Origin: a virus
Virus record (IMG/VR): IMGVR_UViG_3300036985_005999
Coordinates: 1 to 27,676 of that record
Reading direction: 5' to 3' (one strand)
Length of the DNA stretch: 27,676 bases
The notes beneath the pieces are model-generated. The model was given only the letters and a program-made list of their open reading frames with translations, searched no databases and had not been told where the DNA came from. The translations under genes and the position numbers were made by a program. Of this stretch, positions 14,577 to 21,704 are shown one piece after another. The first letter of the stretch is position 1. Every line of letters starts with the position of its first letter.

Positions 14577-14710
14577 AAGGTCAGCCCTTTCGGGCTGGCC
14601 TTTTTTTTTGGTCTGCCGCATGGCTGGTCCCTTTCGGGCTGGCCTTTTTTTTTGGTCTGCCGCATGGCTGGTCCCTTCGGGGATCGGCCTTTTTTTTGGT
14701 CTTTTTTTTT
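14577..14710 (+). terminator. Triplicated rho-independent terminator
   Basis: Three hairpins each end in a run of eight or more T: 14577-14609 (GGTCAGCCC-TTTC-GGGCTGGCC, T9), 14622-14653 (imperfect stem, T9) and 14666-14697 (GGCTGGTCCC-TTCG-GGGATCGGCC, T8), with a last T9 at 14702-14710. The second and third lie in 44-bp direct repeats beginning GGTCTGCCGCATGGCTGGTC. They start five bases after the stop of the 131-aa gene. Confidence 0.9.
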
Positions 14711-14865
14711 CGCCACCAGTTCTCCGATCAGCGGTGCGGATCGCTTCCACCCGCCCGCCACCAGTTCTCCGATCAGCGGTGCGGATCGCGACCAATTGCG
14801 GTCAGGAAACCTCCCTGACCGCAGGCACGGATTTCACTCCAAAACCAATTCTCCGATCAGCGGCG
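14711..14865. repeat. Iteron-like repeats, two full and one partial copy
   Basis: An identical 34-bp unit containing TTCTCCGATCAGCGGTGCGG occurs at 14711-14744 and 14756-14789 (45-bp period). A partial copy occurs at 14845-14865. Each full unit contains CGATC/GATCG inverted arms. The spacing and position next to an AT-rich stretch resemble protein-binding iterons, though they may only be passenger duplications from the neighbouring terminator repeats. Confidence 0.7.
14798..14822 (+). other. Stem-loop of the GTCAGG family
   Basis: GCGGTCAGG and CCTGACCGC pair over nine bp around a seven-base loop. It lies in non-coding DNA within the iteron-like region. Confidence 0.7.
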
Positions 14866-14954: not shown

Positions 14955-14973
14955 GTCAGGGAACCTCCCTGAC
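14955..14973 (+). other. Stem-loop of the GTCAGG family
   Basis: GTCAGGGA-ACC-TCCCTGAC is a perfect eight-bp stem in the intergenic region upstream of the AT-rich stretch. Confidence 0.75.
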
Positions 14974-15726: not shown

Positions 15727-15755
15727 TTGACATATGATGGTATATGGGGTATTCT
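15727..15755 (+). promoter_or_regulatory. Near-consensus sigma-70 promoter
   Basis: TTGACA (15727-15732) is a perfect -35, followed after 17 bp by TATTCT (15750-15755). Transcription would start near 15762 and read into two stem-loops and the coupled gene chain beginning at 15862. An open frame from ATG 15744 lies across this promoter and is rejected. Confidence 0.65.
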
Positions 15756-15784: not shown

Positions 15785-15803
15785 GTCAGGGAGCCTCCCT
15801 GAC
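15785..15803 (+). other. Stem-loop of the GTCAGG family (first of a pair)
   Basis: GTCAGGGAGCCTCCCTGAC lies in the 5' leader of the gene at 15862, and an identical copy follows 14 bases later. Confidence 0.85.
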
Positions 15804-15817
15804 CCGACCCTTCCCCC

Positions 15818-15836
15818 GTCAGGGAGCCTCCCTGAC
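15818..15836 (+). other. Stem-loop of the GTCAGG family (second of a pair)
   Basis: Identical to the stem-loop at 15785. It ends 25 bases before the ATG at 15862. The pair suggests recent duplication of a leader element. Confidence 0.85.
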
Positions 15837-15861: not shown

Positions 15862-16119
15862 ATGACCTTCGAGACCTTGACCCTCTCCCTCCCCGCCCAT
15901 TGGCTGCCCGCCCTCATCAACGAGGATCTGACCGGGCTTGACGATGCCGAGGCGCGCAGCCTCACCCGTTGGGTGCGCGACACCCGCCGCGAGTTTGGCA
16001 ACTTTCACTTTGGCGACGCCCGTGACGCGGGTTTCGTGCGCTATCACGACGCTGCCGAATATGGCGTGCTGGCGTGCAACTGCATGGATGTTGACTTGAT
16101 GCTGGCGGTGTCAGCATGA
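15862..16119 (+). CDS. Small protein of unknown function, 85 aa
   Basis: ATG at 15862, with a weak AAGAAAG site upstream. The sequence LPAHWLPALINEDLTGLDDAEARSLTRWV followed by EFGNFHFGD, YHDAAEYGVLACNCMDV is a pattern I have seen in small hypothetical proteins of phages and plasmids in proteobacteria, without known function. It is acidic and soluble. It begins a chain of ATGA-coupled genes that leads into the mini-gene array. Two identical hairpins and a strong promoter lie upstream, so expression is probably high or regulated through the leader. Confidence 0.75.
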   Translation: MTFETLTLSLPAHWLPALINEDLTGLDDAEARSLTRWVRDTRREFGNFHFGDARDAGFVRYHDAAEYGVLACNCMDVDLMLAVSA

Positions 16120-16694
16120 CAAAAGAGGAACTCCGCGCCCTGATCGCTGCGTCCGACGTTCCCGTTGTGCGCTTCCAGAGCTTCTCACATCGCCCTGTCA
16201 AGGTAACGCCCGTGCAGGGCGTGAACCGGCGCGTGCCTCGCCCGCGCAAGACAACCCCGCTGACTGTCCAACTGCCCCCCATCATCTGCGACCGCCGTTT
16301 CCTGCTGCGCGAGGCTCCCACCACCGGGCCTGACGCAATCTACCGCTGGCGCGAAATTCCCGCGCCGCCCGCGCCGCCCGCGCTGCCTGTCCTGCCCGGT
16401 GTGAAGCGTGAAGTGGCCGCCGTCGCCGCTGGCGACCGCCATTTCCTGCTCCCCGAACCACATCGGGTTGCGAAGCTGTCTGTCCTGCCCGGTGTGGTGG
16501 TGTTCGCGCGCACTGTCCCGCTTGCCGAGCAGGCGGCGGCGAAATACCTCGAACTCGAAATCGAGGGGAAGAAAGTGGGAGCCTCGCCCACTTGGAAGAT
16601 TGACCGAGCCGTGCATCTGCACGAGACCTACGACGCCGAAGCCCGGCGCATCCCGTCAGGGAGCCTCCCTGACCAGAAAGGAGAAACACCATGA
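16116..16694 (+). CDS. Pro/Val-rich protein of unknown function, 192 aa
   Basis: ATG at 16116 overlaps the upstream stop, and its TGA overlaps the ATG of the leader peptide at 16691. The protein has an internal repeat: 'FLLREAPTTGPDAIYRWREIP', 'VLPGVKREVAAVAAGDRHFLLPEP' and 'VLPGVVVFARTVPL' recur in altered form. A Pro/Ala linker lies near residue 85. No domain is recognised. The last 14 codons are odd, because the GTCAGG stem-loop (16655-16673) is read through as SGSLPD. The C-terminus was therefore probably extended by insertion of that element. Confidence 0.7.
   Translation: MTKEELRALIAASDVPVVRFQSFSHRPVKVTPVQGVNRRVPRPRKTTPLTVQLPPIICDRRFLLREAPTTGPDAIYRWREIPAPPAPPALPVLPGVKREVAAVAAGDRHFLLPEPHRVAKLSVLPGVVVFARTVPLAEQAAAKYLELEIEGKKVGASPTWKIDRAVHLHETYDAEARRIPSGSLPDQKGETP
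16655..16673 (+). other. Stem-loop of the GTCAGG family inside a coding end
   Basis: The exact GTCAGGGAGCCTCCCTGAC again, here within the last codons of the 192-aa gene and 17 bases before the leader-peptide start. Confidence 0.85.
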
Positions 16695-16729
16695 ACGGAG
16701 GCGGCTACGCCACCGGAGGTGGCAGATGA
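16691..16729 (+). CDS. Leader peptide of the mini-gene array, 12 aa
   Basis: ATG at 16691 follows AAGGAGAAACACC. The product is MNGGGYATGGGR, ending in the same GGGR as the array units, and its TGA overlaps the ATG of the first full unit. It looks like a unit reduced to its tail end. Its job may be to load ribosomes that then move by termination-reinitiation into the array. The good ribosome site and the exact overlap support translation. Confidence 0.65.
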   Translation: MNGGGYATGGGR

Positions 16730-16965
16730 CCCCCATGGAATGGGCCTTCCTGCACCCGCAGGTGGGCCCCAATGGCCACGGCCACGTCACCGGAGGTGGC
16801 AACGGCCACGGCGACGGCTACGCCGGAAGTGGCACCGGAGGTGGCCACGGCTACGGCTACGCCACCGGAAGTGGCGACGGCCACGGCGACGGCTACCGCT
16901 ACTCCGCCGGAGGTGGCAACGGCCACGGCTACGGCCACGGCCACGGCAACGGAGGTGGCAGATGA
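16726..16965 (+). CDS. Array unit 1: MTPMEWAFLHPQVGP head with Gly/His/Tyr tail, 79 aa
   Basis: ATG 16726 overlaps the leader stop; GGAGGT ends five bases upstream. The head MTPMEWAFLHPQVGPNG is followed by about 60 residues in which Gly alternates with His, Asp, Tyr or Asn (GGNGHGDGYAGSG, GDGHGDGYRY), ending GNGGGR. The head is short and partly hydrophobic with one Trp. The tail has no fixed core and would be flexible, possibly metal-binding through His, or able to associate through Tyr. No known family is recognised. The head RNA folds into a hairpin at 16742-16769. Confidence 0.72.
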   Translation: MTPMEWAFLHPQVGPNGHGHVTGGGNGHGDGYAGSGTGGGHGYGYATGSGDGHGDGYRYSAGGGNGHGYGHGHGNGGGR

Positions 16966-17174
16966 CCCCCATGGAATGGGCCTTCCTGCACCCGCAGGTG
17001 GGCCCCAAAGGCTACGCCACCGGAGGTGGCTACGGCCACGGCCACGGCTACGCCGCCGGAGGTGGCCGTGGCCACGGCTACGCCGCCGGAGGTGGCCGTG
17101 GCGACGGCCACGGCCACGGCAACGGAGGTGGCAACGGCGACGGCTACGGCTACGCCACCGGAGGTAGCAGATGA
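16962..17174 (+). CDS. Array unit 2: same head, Gly-rich tail, 70 aa
   Basis: Coupled by ATGA to unit 1 with GGAGGT just upstream. The head MTPMEWAFLHPQVGPKG is identical to units 3 and 4. The tail has two copies of YAAGGGRG, the only units here with internal Arg, then GDGHGHGNGGGNGDGYGYATGGSR. The final GGSR differs from GGGR elsewhere (GGTAGC for GGTGGC) but keeps the ribosome site for unit 3. As for the other units, expression depends on reinitiation or direct entry at the strong site. Confidence 0.72.
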   Translation: MTPMEWAFLHPQVGPKGYATGGGYGHGHGYAAGGGRGHGYAAGGGRGDGHGHGNGGGNGDGYGYATGGSR

Positions 17175-17419
17175 CCCCCATGGAATGGGCCTTCCTGCAC
17201 CCGCAGGTGGGCCCCAAAGGCTACGGCCACGGCGACGGCTACGGCCACGGCTACGGCTACGGCGACGGCTTCGCCACCGGAGGTGGCTACGGCCACGGCC
17301 ACGGCCACAGCCACGGCACCGGAGGTGGCAACGGCCACGGCGACGGCTACGCCACCGGAAGTGGCAACGGCGACGGCGACGGCTACGGCTACGGCTACGC
17401 CACCGGAGGTGGCAGATGA
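17171..17419 (+). CDS. Array unit 3: same head, Gly-rich tail, 82 aa
   Basis: Coupled by ATGA to unit 2. After the head the tail runs GYGHGDGYGHGYGYGDGF, ATGGGYGHGHGHSHGTGGG and further GDGY blocks to ATGGGR. It is strictly alternating Gly-X over long stretches, like silk-type or polyglycine sequences, with X limited to Tyr, His, Asp and Asn apart from the spacer blocks. One Ser replaces His by an AGC codon. Confidence 0.72.
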   Translation: MTPMEWAFLHPQVGPKGYGHGDGYGHGYGYGDGFATGGGYGHGHGHSHGTGGGNGHGDGYATGSGNGDGDGYGYGYATGGGR

Positions 17420-17622
17420 CCCCCATGGAATGGGCCTTCCTGCACCCGCAGGTGGGCCCCAAAGGCTACGGCCACGGCGACGGCTACTGCCACGGCTACG
17501 GCGACGGCTTCGGCACCGGAGGTGGCAACGGCCACGGCGACGGCTACGTCACCGGAGGTGGCAACGGCCACGGCGACGGCTACGCCACCGGAAGTGGCAA
17601 CGGCGACGGAGGTGGCAGATGA
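17416..17622 (+). CDS. Array unit 4: same head, Gly-rich tail, 68 aa
   Basis: Coupled by ATGA to unit 3. It is the shortest full unit. The tail contains GDGYCHGYGDGFGTGGG, which has the array's only Cys, then two GGNGHGDGY blocks separated by VTGGG, ending GNGDGGGR. The indels that distinguish it from other units are multiples of three, which argues that the frame is under selection. Confidence 0.72.
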   Translation: MTPMEWAFLHPQVGPKGYGHGDGYCHGYGDGFGTGGGNGHGDGYVTGGGNGHGDGYATGSGNGDGGGR

Positions 17623-17930
17623 CCCCCATGGAATGGGCCTTCCTGCACCCGCAGGTGGGCCACAATGGCCGTGGCTACGCCACCGGAGGTGGCTACGGCC
17701 ACGGCCACGGCCACGGCAACGGCTTCGCCACCGGAGGTGGCTACGGCCACGGCCACGGCCACAGCCACGGCTACGGCGACGGCCACGGCGACGGCGACGG
17801 CTACGGCTACGCCACCGGAAGTGGCACCGGAGGTGGCGACGGCGACGGCTACGGCTACGCCACCGGAAGTGGCACCGGAGGTGGCCCCCAATGGCTACGG
17901 CCACGGCCACGGCCACAACCACGGCGTTAG
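17619..17930 (+). CDS. Array unit 5: altered head, frameshifted C-terminus, 103 aa
   Basis: Coupled by ATGA to unit 4. The head has HNG in place of PKG (MTPMEWAFLHPQVGHNG). The tail is the longest and twice repeats GDGYGYATGSGTGGG. From about 17882 the frame leaves the Gly-X pattern and reads PQWLRPRPRPQPRR to a TAG. The other frame there would have continued PNGYGHGHGHNHG. The junction resembles a fusion to another unit's start, so the end is probably a recombination scar. The TAG lies inside the next stem-loop. Confidence 0.7.
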   Translation: MTPMEWAFLHPQVGHNGRGYATGGGYGHGHGHGNGFATGGGYGHGHGHSHGYGDGHGDGDGYGYATGSGTGGGDGDGYGYATGSGTGGGPQWLRPRPRPQPRR

Positions 17931-17963: not shown

Positions 17964-18233
17964 ATGAACTTTGCAGAACAAACTCTCGCGATCCTCGTCA
18001 TCGAAGCCGGGCACGTGCTGATTGCACGCGTCCAAGGTGGCGCCGATGGCACCCTACGTGCATACAACGCACGAACAATCCGCTCATGGGGGACGACGAA
18101 AGGCCTCGGCGAACTATACGACGGGCCGACCAAGGACACGATCCTCGATGCACGGGTGCCACTAATTTTGCAACCCCTGTCGAAAGTCATCTACGTGCTG
18201 CCCGTATCAGAGAACGCCCATTGGGGCGTCTGA
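17964..18233 (+). CDS. Protein of unknown function, 89 aa
   Basis: ATG at 17964 follows CCAAGGAGACTACC. The product (MNFAEQTLAILVIEAGHVLIARVQGG, then IRSWGTTKGLGELYDGPTKDTILDARV) looks like a small alpha/beta protein. Proteins with the SWGTTKGLGEL type of motif occur in phages as uncharacterised small proteins. Its TGA is also the first codon of a solo copy of the array head element, so this gene may have gained its present end when that element arrived. Confidence 0.75.
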   Translation: MNFAEQTLAILVIEAGHVLIARVQGGADGTLRAYNARTIRSWGTTKGLGELYDGPTKDTILDARVPLILQPLSKVIYVLPVSENAHWGV

Positions 18234-18286
18234 CCCCCATGGAATGGGCCTTCCTGCACCCGCAGGTGGGCCCGAGAGGCTTCTGA
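18231..18286 (+). other. Solo copy of the array head element (possible CTG-start or dead mini-gene)
   Basis: Bases 18231-18273 match the array heads exactly over 43 bp, including the hairpin GGGCC-TT-CCTGC-ACCC-GCAGG-TG-GGCCC at 18246-18273. No Gly tail follows: after GPRGF there is a TGA at 18284-18286. The A of the usual ATG is C here, so translation could only begin at CTG 18230, coupled to the 89-aa stop, or at ATG 18239 without a ribosome site. Retention of the head without the tail suggests that the head works as nucleic acid. Confidence 0.7.
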
Positions 18287-18330: not shown

Positions 18331-19425
18331 ATGCAATCAACATCCATGTTCAATCTCGGCCTCAGCCAGTGTGCCGATCTCATCCTCGCCTGCGGGAATG
18401 AGGTGACGTTTCTCCTGCAAGGGCCGATAGGTTCCGGCAAGACCGCCATCCAGAAAACACTGGCGGCAGCGTTGCCAAGCCACTTGCCGATCTACTTTGA
18501 CTGCACCACCAAAGATCAGGGGGACATGATGCTGCCCCGCATTGCCGAGGCGACCAGCGATGCACCCTTCGTGTCCTTCGCGCCGAACGAGGAGCTTGGC
18601 CTGCATCACCGCGGGCCGATCATCGCCATGCTGGACGAAATCGGAAAAGCGCCGAAGTCGGTGCAGGGTGCGCTGACGCGCTTTATGTATGAGCGCAAAT
18701 TCGGGTCGTATACGCTGCACCCCGACAGCATCGTCTTTGCGACCACCAACCTTGCCGGCGAAGGCGTCGGAGACATGCTGATGCCGCATCACTGGAACCG
18801 CATCACCCTTCTGACCGTGCGCAAGCCCGACCATCTGGAGTGGCTGGAATGGGCCATCAACAACAACCTCGACCCGGCCCTGATGGGGTGGGTGCGCGAC
18901 AACCCGCATCTGTTCCAGAGTTTCGAGGAGGTGAAGGACCCCGAGCAGAACCCCTACATCTTCCACCCGCGCGACCCGAGCCGGAAGTCCTTCGTGACCG
19001 GGCGCTCGCTGGAGAAGGCCAGCAAGATCATCAAGGCCACCCGTGGCAAGGTGGACGAAACTTCGCTCACCGCAGCCTTGATCGGCACGCTGGGTGCCCG
19101 TGCGGCCATGGACCTCATGGCCTTCGTGAGCCTGTCGCACGACCTGCCGACGCTGGAGAGCATCAAGACGGACCCGCTCAACGCGAAGGTGCCGACCTCG
19201 GCCGCAGGCGTGTGCATGGTGGTGTATCGCACCTTGGCCACCATCGAAGCCGACTGGGTGGAAAATTGGATGAAATATATCGAAAGGCTTGACGCCGAGG
19301 CACAGGCGCTCTTCGCGAACGGCGTGCGGTCGCGGAACTATGCCAAGCAGGCCATGATCATGAATGCGAAGAGCTTTGCCTCGTGGGTGGTTTCCCGCAG
19401 CTACCTCTTTGGGGCAGACGTTTGA
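18331..19425 (+). CDS. MoxR/CobS-type AAA+ ATPase, 364 aa
   Basis: ATG at 18331 follows AAAGGAAACTACC. Walker A is GPIGSGKT (31-38), Walker B is IIAMLDEIGK with D102/E103, and sensor 1 is FATTNLAGEG with N140. Residues 104-126 (GKAPKSVQGALTRFMYERKFG) match the MoxR/CobS subgroup. The C-terminal 200 residues are helical. MoxR-type ATPases form rings that remodel protein targets presented by a VWA partner, and one is encoded at 20463. A DUF3150-type gene follows at 22769. The target in the infected cell is unknown. All core ATPase residues are intact. Confidence 0.88.
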   Translation: MQSTSMFNLGLSQCADLILACGNEVTFLLQGPIGSGKTAIQKTLAAALPSHLPIYFDCTTKDQGDMMLPRIAEATSDAPFVSFAPNEELGLHHRGPIIAMLDEIGKAPKSVQGALTRFMYERKFGSYTLHPDSIVFATTNLAGEGVGDMLMPHHWNRITLLTVRKPDHLEWLEWAINNNLDPALMGWVRDNPHLFQSFEEVKDPEQNPYIFHPRDPSRKSFVTGRSLEKASKIIKATRGKVDETSLTAALIGTLGARAAMDLMAFVSLSHDLPTLESIKTDPLNAKVPTSAAGVCMVVYRTLATIEADWVENWMKYIERLDAEAQALFANGVRSRNYAKQAMIMNAKSFASWVVSRSYLFGADV

Positions 19426-20242: not shown

Positions 20243-20458
20243 ATGCCGATATACAAGGAAATTCACATGGCAGTAGGGCACATCGGCGAAGCTTTCTACA
20301 CCTACCTTTTTGCGGACAAGGTAAAGGCCGAGGCGTTCATCGCCCTTGTCGCACAGCACCACGACGATGGCGTTTGTCACTGGGAAGTCCAGACCGTTGT
20401 CTTGTCGGACGATCCTGAAATCACACATAAAGAGCACCGCGATTGGGTGCAGGAGTAA
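20243..20458 (+). CDS. Small protein of unknown function, 71 aa
   Basis: ATG at 20243, with AGAGG upstream, four bases after the previous stop. The sequence (MPIYKEIHMAVGHIGEAFYTYLFADKVKAEAFIALVAQHHDDG) suggests a beta-alpha-beta fold with His/Asp clusters. No family is recognised. Its last codons and stop contain the AGGAG that serves the VWA gene, so the two are translationally linked. Confidence 0.7.
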   Translation: MPIYKEIHMAVGHIGEAFYTYLFADKVKAEAFIALVAQHHDDGVCHWEVQTVVLSDDPEITHKEHRDWVQE

Positions 20459-20462
20459 ACAA

Positions 20463-21704
20463 ATGTTCAACAGTAAGCTTTCACCCCACCAGCGTCTAGA
20501 GAAGGCCGTCGTGGCCATCATGGCGCATCTGCGCTACCGCAACCTGTCTGGTCTCTTGATGGTTGGTCAGCGCCTCGTTACCGACATCTACAAGGGCCGG
20601 CCGGTGCCCACAGCGTGCACCAACGGCAAGGACGAGGTCTACAGCCCGGGGTTCATCGCGCAGCTGAACGACGCGGAGCTGCGCTTCCTCGTGCTGCATG
20701 AGTGCGAGCACAAGCTCTATCGCCACCTGACGACGTGGCGCTGGATGTATAACCTCGACGCCCGGATGGCGAACCAAGCCTGTGACTACGTCATCAACAT
20801 CAAGTTGGTGGACGAGAACAAGATCGACGGCTTCGCCACCATGACCGGCGCGCTGACCCGCGGCTGCTTCAACGAGAAATACCGCGATTGGGACAGCGCC
20901 AAGGTGTTCCACGACCTGCGCAAGAACCCGCCACCCGGCGGGGGCGAAGGCGAAGGCGAAGGCGAAGGCGAAGGCGAAGACGAAGGCGAAGGCGAAGGCT
21001 TCGACGAGCACGACTGGGACAGTGCCGAGGAGATGAGCGAGGAGGACAAGCGCGCTCTCGCCCGCGAGATTGACGCGGCCATCCGGCAAGGTGCCTTGCT
21101 GGCGGCCAAGACGGGCACGGGCGGCGACCGCAGCTTCGACGAACTCTTGCAGCCGCAGGTCAACTGGCGCGAGGCCCTGCGCGACTTCGTCACGGCAACC
21201 TGCACGGGGTCTGACTTCTCCACGTGGCGCAAGCCCAACCGGCGCTACATCGGTGCCGGATACTACATGCCAAGCCGCGTCAGCGAGCAGGTGGAGGACC
21301 TCGTGATTGCTCCGGACATGTCGGGATCGACCTTCGCCCCGGGCGTGCTGCCGGCCTTCATGTCCGAGGTCAAGACGATCTGCGAGACCGTCAACCCCAA
21401 GCGGGTGCACGTCCTCTATTGGGACACCAAGATCACCCGGGCCGAGGTCTATGAGGCGCACGAACTCGCCAACATGATCAGCGTGACCAAGCCGACGGGC
21501 GGGGGCGGCACCATCGTCGAGTGCGTGCCGGACTACATGGCCAAGCACAACATCAAGCCGCAGGCGGCCGTCGTGCTGACCGACGGCTATATCGGGTCGA
21601 CGTGGGGTCAGTGGTCCTGCCCGGTGCTGTGGTGCGTGATCAACAACAAGTCGTGCCACCCGAGCCATGGCTCGGTCGTGCACATCAAGGCGAGTGATCT
21701 GTGA
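20463..21704 (+). CDS. Metallopeptidase-like plus VWA protein (DUF2201/CobT-like), 413 aa
   Basis: ATG at 20463 follows AGGAGTAAACAA. The N-terminal domain has HECEH (H79-E80-H83) with H88, the zinc-peptidase-like motif of the DUF2201 N-terminal family. A (Gly-Glu)n acidic linker lies at about 159-179, coded by GGCGAA repeats. The C-terminal VWA-like domain keeps a metal-ion site D285-x-S287-x-S289, T345 or T350 and D374 (VLTDG). This is the expected partner of the MoxR ATPase at 18331, as in CobS/CobT, RavA/ViaA and NorQ/NorD pairs. Whether the HExxH cleaves protein or only binds metal is unknown. A much longer frame starting inside the previous gene is rejected. Confidence 0.85.
   Translation: MFNSKLSPHQRLEKAVVAIMAHLRYRNLSGLLMVGQRLVTDIYKGRPVPTACTNGKDEVYSPGFIAQLNDAELRFLVLHECEHKLYRHLTTWRWMYNLDARMANQACDYVINIKLVDENKIDGFATMTGALTRGCFNEKYRDWDSAKVFHDLRKNPPPGGGEGEGEGEGEGEDEGEGEGFDEHDWDSAEEMSEEDKRALAREIDAAIRQGALLAAKTGTGGDRSFDELLQPQVNWREALRDFVTATCTGSDFSTWRKPNRRYIGAGYYMPSRVSEQVEDLVIAPDMSGSTFAPGVLPAFMSEVKTICETVNPKRVHVLYWDTKITRAEVYEAHELANMISVTKPTGGGGTIVECVPDYMAKHNIKPQAAVVLTDGYIGSTWGQWSCPVLWCVINNKSCHPSHGSVVHIKASDL

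Follow-up and report, generated by a model that had tools for sequence, protein, structure and literature searches.

Tyr/Gly-rich low-complexity segments are found in FUS and in the linker of SSB. The F/YGG region of hnRNPA2 binds both RNA and DNA and undergoes phase separation (PMC9067507). In Hfq, the disordered C-terminus is variable, often acidic, and tunes nucleic-acid binding (PMC5606850, PMC6561178). The genes considered here encode small proteins in which glycine alternates with a second residue (Gly-X), and an earlier note on this DNA had supposed that they did not form a textbook system. This supposition agrees with the open PMC literature, in which no description was found of Gly-X phage proteins or of a pairing of Sm-like and Gly-X genes, and no mention of the Pfam family DUF6948. 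The main text of the Barba phage papers does not mention Gly-X or Sm-like genes.

The window is the whole stretch of DNA that was analysed: 27,676 bases from a phage (a virus of bacteria), recorded in IMG/VR as linear. Its genome context is therefore partial. The earlier note had described a 12-codon leader and five tandem frames joined by ATGA, and these are present where it placed them. For the leader and all five units alike, the ATG overlaps the TGA stop of the frame before it. The constant head and the Gly-X tail occur in every unit, with a single head change (P15H, unit 5), and GGAGGT is located 5 nt before all five ATGs. The features of the region are as follows.

15727-15755, plus strand: sigma70-like promoter match (TTGACA-17-TATTCT) upstream of the coupled chain; a consensus match only
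16116-16694, plus strand: upstream open reading frame, 192 aa, ending by ATGA overlap on the leader
16691-16729, plus strand: leader MNGGGYATGGGR, 12 codons, itself Gly-X-like; its stop overlaps the start of unit 1
16726-16965, plus strand: unit 1, 79 aa, head MTPMEWAFLHPQVGP followed by a Gly-X tail
16962-17174, plus strand: unit 2, 70 aa
17171-17419, plus strand: unit 3, 82 aa
17416-17622, plus strand: unit 4, 68 aa
17619-17930, plus strand: unit 5, 103 aa, head with P15H; the last 14 residues lie outside the Gly-X frame
17964-18233, plus strand: gene for a predicted Sm-like partner protein, 89 aa, in the superfamily of Pfam DUF6948; begins 34 nt after unit 5
18230-18286, plus strand: sixth, tail-less head copy, LTPMEWAFLHPQVGPRGF followed by a stop; overlaps the stop of gene 17964-18233
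18331-19425, plus strand: MoxR-type AAA ATPase, which anchors the gene neighbourhood common to the window and contigs L084 and L085

The coupled chain extends further upstream, where an open reading frame at 15862-16119 is joined by ATGA to that at 16116-16694; the latter gave no family match at a credible E-value. At the other end of the array, unit 5 contains a frame break close to the 3' end: beyond ...GSGTGGG its frame gives PQWLRPRPRPQPRR and a stop, and another frame runs on as APNGYGHGHGHNHGVRNGS before stopping. The junction DNA, GGTGGCCCCCAATGGC, near 17877, resembles the remnant of a head end that was attached in the wrong frame. In the sixth head copy, CTG replaces the first ATG and an internal ATG lies at 18239. 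This copy fills the slot where relatives have a full Gly-X gene.

Several other elements were observed in the window. A near-palindrome, GTCAGGGAGCCTCCCTGAC, occurs five times around the early operon (14801-14818, 14955-14972, 15785-15802, 15818-15835 and 16655-16672), with nine strand matches where none is expected by chance, and may be an operator or a terminator-like element. A 44-base tandem repeat of 2.7 copies lies at 14585-14702, upstream of the early operon. Open reading frame 20346-21704, for a metallopeptidase/VWA-type protein (DUF2201), contains a GGCGAA hexamer repeat (20943-20999) that encodes Gly-Glu dipeptides within a linker and so constitutes a further Gly-X tract in the same operon; a tract of this type also occurs in L084, as GEGQ. 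Rfam matched Mu-gpT-DE RNA at 1731-1783 on the minus strand (51.6 bits against a gathering threshold of 49).

The main clue to function is the Sm-like gene at 17964-18233, which is absent from the earlier note. A reading of the array as a stand-alone system is not supported: it belongs to a widespread class of Gly-X genes located beside an Sm-like gene. In the kind of database search that the note had proposed, the array DNA matched Gly-X genes in 132 phage records, and in the approximately 13 cases inspected the adjacent gene was always a DUF6948 member or a relative of 17964-18233. The exact DNA pattern of the window head had no match in IMG/VR. Searching with Gly-X DNA and searching with the partner proteins gave nearly identical lists of records, both comprising phages of Rheinheimera (115), Pectobacterium (7), Iodobacter (2), Rhodobacter (2), Vibrio (1) and Dickeya (1).

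The pairing was quantified at 93 loci fetched with DUF6948 proteins alone, many of them related to one another. A Gly-X gene lies directly downstream on the same strand in 88 of these 93, where the viral loci are the best 80 of 548 confirmed IMG/VR hits and the sample is therefore biased towards the query's relatives. Of the five misses, three are truncated at a contig end, and two have degenerate or masked Gly-rich frames. Background occurrence of Gly-X genes is low: the rest of the DUF6948 loci, 288 kb in all, yielded 7, and 728 kb of loci around portal genes yielded 3. Of 82 cases that could be scored, 70 have a Gly-X start that overlaps the DUF6948 stop, most commonly by 13 bases. In the reverse test, with loci fetched by the Gly-X DNA pattern, an Sm-like gene adjoins 69 of the 80 Gly-X genes that could be scored, compared with 10% of random positions, and the 728 kb of control loci gave no Sm-like match. 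Bacterial carriers include Chlamydiae, Proteobacteria, Firmicutes, Actinobacteria and others. The cassette of Sm-like and Gly-X genes is very well supported. In the window the Sm-like gene adjoins the array on the same strand; the full units lie upstream of that gene, and the downstream slot holds the head-only copy.

No fused Sm/Gly-X protein was found among the 93 loci. The units weakly match phrog_18306 and a DUF6948 protein matches another part of that profile, which hints at a natural fusion. In a gut phage (L160, 2282-2800), a Gly-X gene that lies downstream of a DUF6948 gene is itself fused to a further domain of ~145 residues without a Pfam match. Open reading frames around the DUF6948 loci also include one Gad1 anti-Gabija protein (PF25705, E 1e-72) and one that carries DUF7666.

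The family of the window gene and the DUF6948 family (PF22253) are joined by a profile-profile match (P 6e-5). The window protein itself had no Pfam match at E 1 or better, nor did it reach the curated cut-off of DUF6948; its homologue in L084 (60% identical) matches PF22253 at E 0.003, below the cut-off. The AlphaFold2 model of DUF6948 is confident (pLDDT 92), and its listed PDB matches, from Foldseek and VIA-align, are nearly all Sm/LSm proteins or complexes containing them, with VIA-align Z scores up to 7.0, a value that the tool's own note calls only suggestive for a single hit. For the 17964-18233 model (pLDDT 86), VIA-align Z reaches 8.9, with 37 chains at Z of at least 8, and the chains listed are all Sm/LSm. 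The two models are not fully independent, because the alignment for 17964-18233 included DUF6948 rows. Both proteins are accordingly predicted, from these models, to adopt an Sm/LSm-like fold. A PDB sequence search with DUF6948 profiles gave no match. Classical Sm proteins contact RNA through the motifs Sm1 (D..MN) and Sm2 (RG). Both motifs are absent from DUF6948, as read from the alignments, so that the fold by itself does not imply nucleic-acid binding.

Within the window, the case for translation of the array is moderate. Unit starts are 236, 209, 245 and 203 nt apart, all 2 modulo 3, and four in-frame arrivals would occur by chance about once in 81 given the repeated head DNA. The earlier note had stated that the register is kept although unit lengths differ, which is correct at the four junctions and fails in unit 5, where the tail leaves the frame. 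Its argument that the register indicates translation is weak when taken alone; the strong evidence comes from the relatives described below. Because the tails use GGAGGT to encode Gly-Gly, it is present 20 times in the array, and by itself it is therefore no sign of a ribosome-binding site. Tail variation in the GGC-NAC hexamer falls almost entirely on the first base of X (C28/A11/G20/T33), and the third base is C in 97 of 97 Tyr, His, Asp and Asn codons (P ~1e-13 given the codon usage of the window itself), so that the tails look like products of recent hexamer expansion or homogenisation. Since the tail changes are silent both in the +1 frame (Ala-Thr) and in the antisense frame (Val-Ala), purifying selection is not demonstrable from the window alone. 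These two frames were considered as coding and rejected, as the starts, heads and coupling in the relatives belong to the Gly-X frame.

The MoxR ATPase led to three related contigs, L084, L085 and L139, which supply stronger evidence. Together they carry 26 mini-genes with Gly-X tails in the same neighbourhood but with different DNA, the two long contigs (64 and 62 kb) having 9 and 10 copies. Their heads read M-I-W-x-F-[LAV]-[RK]-P-L-V-W, and the motif W-x-F-[LAV]-x-P-x-V is common to them and to the window, whose head is MTPMEW-A-F-L-H-P-Q-V; elsewhere it occurs once in 1.46 million residues of other open reading frames. Among the 26 heads pN/pS is 0.35, and F5, P8, L9 and V10 vary silently only. 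The start falls on the preceding gene's stop in 24 of the 26 copies, including those after the VWA gene and the Sm-like gene. The window shows all three traits of this W-x-F family: the head and tail, the stop-start coupling, and the Sm-like/MoxR neighbourhood. On sequence grounds, the five Gly-X frames are very likely translated, because the relatives keep the head motif with different DNA, the coupling recurs, and the Gly-X frame is kept beside DUF6948. Most mini-genes in these closest relatives come after other genes (VWA and others) and not after the Sm-like gene, so other partners besides the Sm-like protein are conceivable.

Gly-X proteins of the DUF6948 set have a median of ~85 residues, with Ser, Tyr, Asp or Asn at ~94% of X positions. 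Lys and Arg are nearly absent, and the median pI is 4.05. The window tails differ in being His-rich and near neutral. In searches against PHROGs and Pfam the units gave compositional matches only, such as TrAA12 and KRTAP. The tails are dipeptide repeats without the RTX nonapeptide GGxGxDxUx or collagen G-X-Y periodicity, and Pfam gave no RTX or collagen match.

Tandem arrays with constant heads and variable tails recur in about ten other lineages, so that the window array is one case of a recurrent design. Examples are five copies of MGLKAFLKFG...GEPNLTSAGATVVEE in L275 (1693-2971), three copies of MTE[YF][FL]YP[VI]G... with ATIST-type ends in L326 (minus strand), and two copies of MTKL[FS]RPVG with a 4-base overlap in L268 (9753-10252). 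In several arrays (L275, L326, L268, and L332 on the minus strand), both ends are constant and the Gly-X middle alone varies. The C-terminal ends of L326, L332 and L331 are alike and basic (ATISTRTRRR, TVTARKRR and TVSTSTRRR).

The explanation that we favour, held tentatively at a little under an even chance, is that the five units are translated Gly-X microproteins of a phage cassette whose Sm-like half is 17964-18233, and that they act as detached tails. How the cassette proteins would bind, oligomerise, condense and be timed we infer as follows. The Sm-like protein would form a ring or other oligomer and, early in infection, act on RNA or ssDNA. Re-initiation on the shared message would supply the Gly-X microprotein at a matched dose; this would bind the Sm-like protein through the head, the aromatic residues or both, and would serve as a disordered tail acting in trans to tune nucleic-acid binding; it may also gather the Sm-like protein into a condensate. 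Duplication of units, together with slippage of the hexamer tails behind a fixed head, would provide more copies and higher valency. The fuller version, in which the two proteins build a viral nucleic-acid granule and the arrays adjust dose or valency, is possible but somewhat unlikely. The acidity of the Gly-X proteins, set against a median pI of 8.0 for DUF6948, speaks for the tail model. Against it stand the missing Sm contact motifs of DUF6948, the near-neutral window tails, the position of the array upstream of the Sm-like gene, the mini-genes of the closest relatives that follow other genes, and the lack of fusions in the 93 loci.

The neighbours of the cassettes suggest a narrower form of this explanation, in which the pair would be an ssDNA-recombination accessory of the phage annealing/exonuclease module, acting on ssDNA and not RNA as a trans analogue of the disordered linker of SSB. 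The commonest identified neighbours of DUF6948 cassettes are RecT, ERF, Bet-like and other ssDNA-annealing proteins, RecE/YqaJ exonucleases and Gp157, in a tally that covers cassettes alone. Neighbours of the same types occur in Koroua, PMBT5, ctOK67 and phiPLPE. However, early modules contain annealing and exonuclease genes anyway, and the window array is flanked by MoxR and VWA genes, with no recombination gene identified beside it. We regard this narrower form as unlikely.

A role in host takeover is a good deal less probable. The Sm-like protein might mimic Hfq or Rof, for example by blocking Rho or an RNA chaperone, with the Gly-X protein as an accessory or decoy. The predicted Sm-like fold and the early-operon position are consistent with this, as is the reported inhibition of Rho by the Sm-like protein Rof (PMC11018626). 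Yet any sequence link to Rof or Hfq is absent, and the constant attachment of a Gly-X gene is left without explanation.

It is more improbable again that the Gly-X proteins are self-assembling structural material, building beta sheets or fibres like those of silk and having nothing to do with nucleic acids. Glycine alternates in silk-type repeats, which the strict alternation here resembles, and weak compositional matches such as KRTAP point the same way. Tails that are acidic and repulsive fit poorly with such assembly, as do the near-obligate pairing with an Sm-like gene and the early, recombination-type neighbourhood. Marginally less probable still is a neutral origin, by which hexamer slippage opened the frames and the copies spread as selfish or hitch-hiking repeats. 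The freshly expanded look of the window tails, the one frame-broken unit and the one tail-less copy would suit it, but the heads are conserved, with silent-only changes at key codons, the coupling is conserved, and the Gly-X gene persists beside DUF6948 across hosts. A role of the repeated head as structured RNA or DNA, and not as the head of a protein, is scarcely credible and was rejected: the window head DNA can fold into a strong hairpin (-24.7 kcal/mol, z about -3), but this is not conserved in the relatives' heads, which keep the protein motif, and an Rfam scan gave no match in the array.

Gly/Tyr low-complexity microproteins are usually dismissed in annotation as repeats and labelled ‘hypothetical protein’, ‘lamprin’ or ‘adsorption protein’. 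Their near-obligate pairing with one predicted Sm-like family, across phages of diverse hosts, makes them part of a defined system of two genes, in which the partner can be tested and a role with nucleic acids is likely. DUF6948 gains a predicted fold, and there is reason to seek phage granules or RNP-like bodies. The arrays, whose ends are fixed while their low-complexity middles vary, also form natural series in which to study how valency and composition set behaviour.

Among described systems, Hfq with its disordered C-terminal domain is similar in combining a small Sm fold, here predicted, with a variable, often acidic tail. The cassette differs in that a coupled gene of its own, often amplified, encodes the strictly Gly-X tail, and in that the Sm-like protein lacks sequence relation to Hfq and lacks Sm motifs. 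Members of PF22253 share with the window family the same predicted fold and the same Gly-X pairing, whereas the window protein itself gives no Pfam match. The Sm/LSm-like structure 3by7, from an uncultured marine source and of putative cyanophage origin, ranks third in both VIA lists (Z 6.8 and 8.5) but has no detectable sequence similarity. The segments of hnRNPA2, FUS and the SSB linker likewise combine glycine with aromatic or polar residues at low complexity; they are parts of larger proteins, whereas the Gly-X proteins are free microproteins of ~85 residues with strict glycine alternation and hardly any Arg or Lys. Judged against the open PMC literature, the pairing and its arrays are of a kind not described before, built from parts, the Sm fold and low-complexity tails, that are of known kinds.
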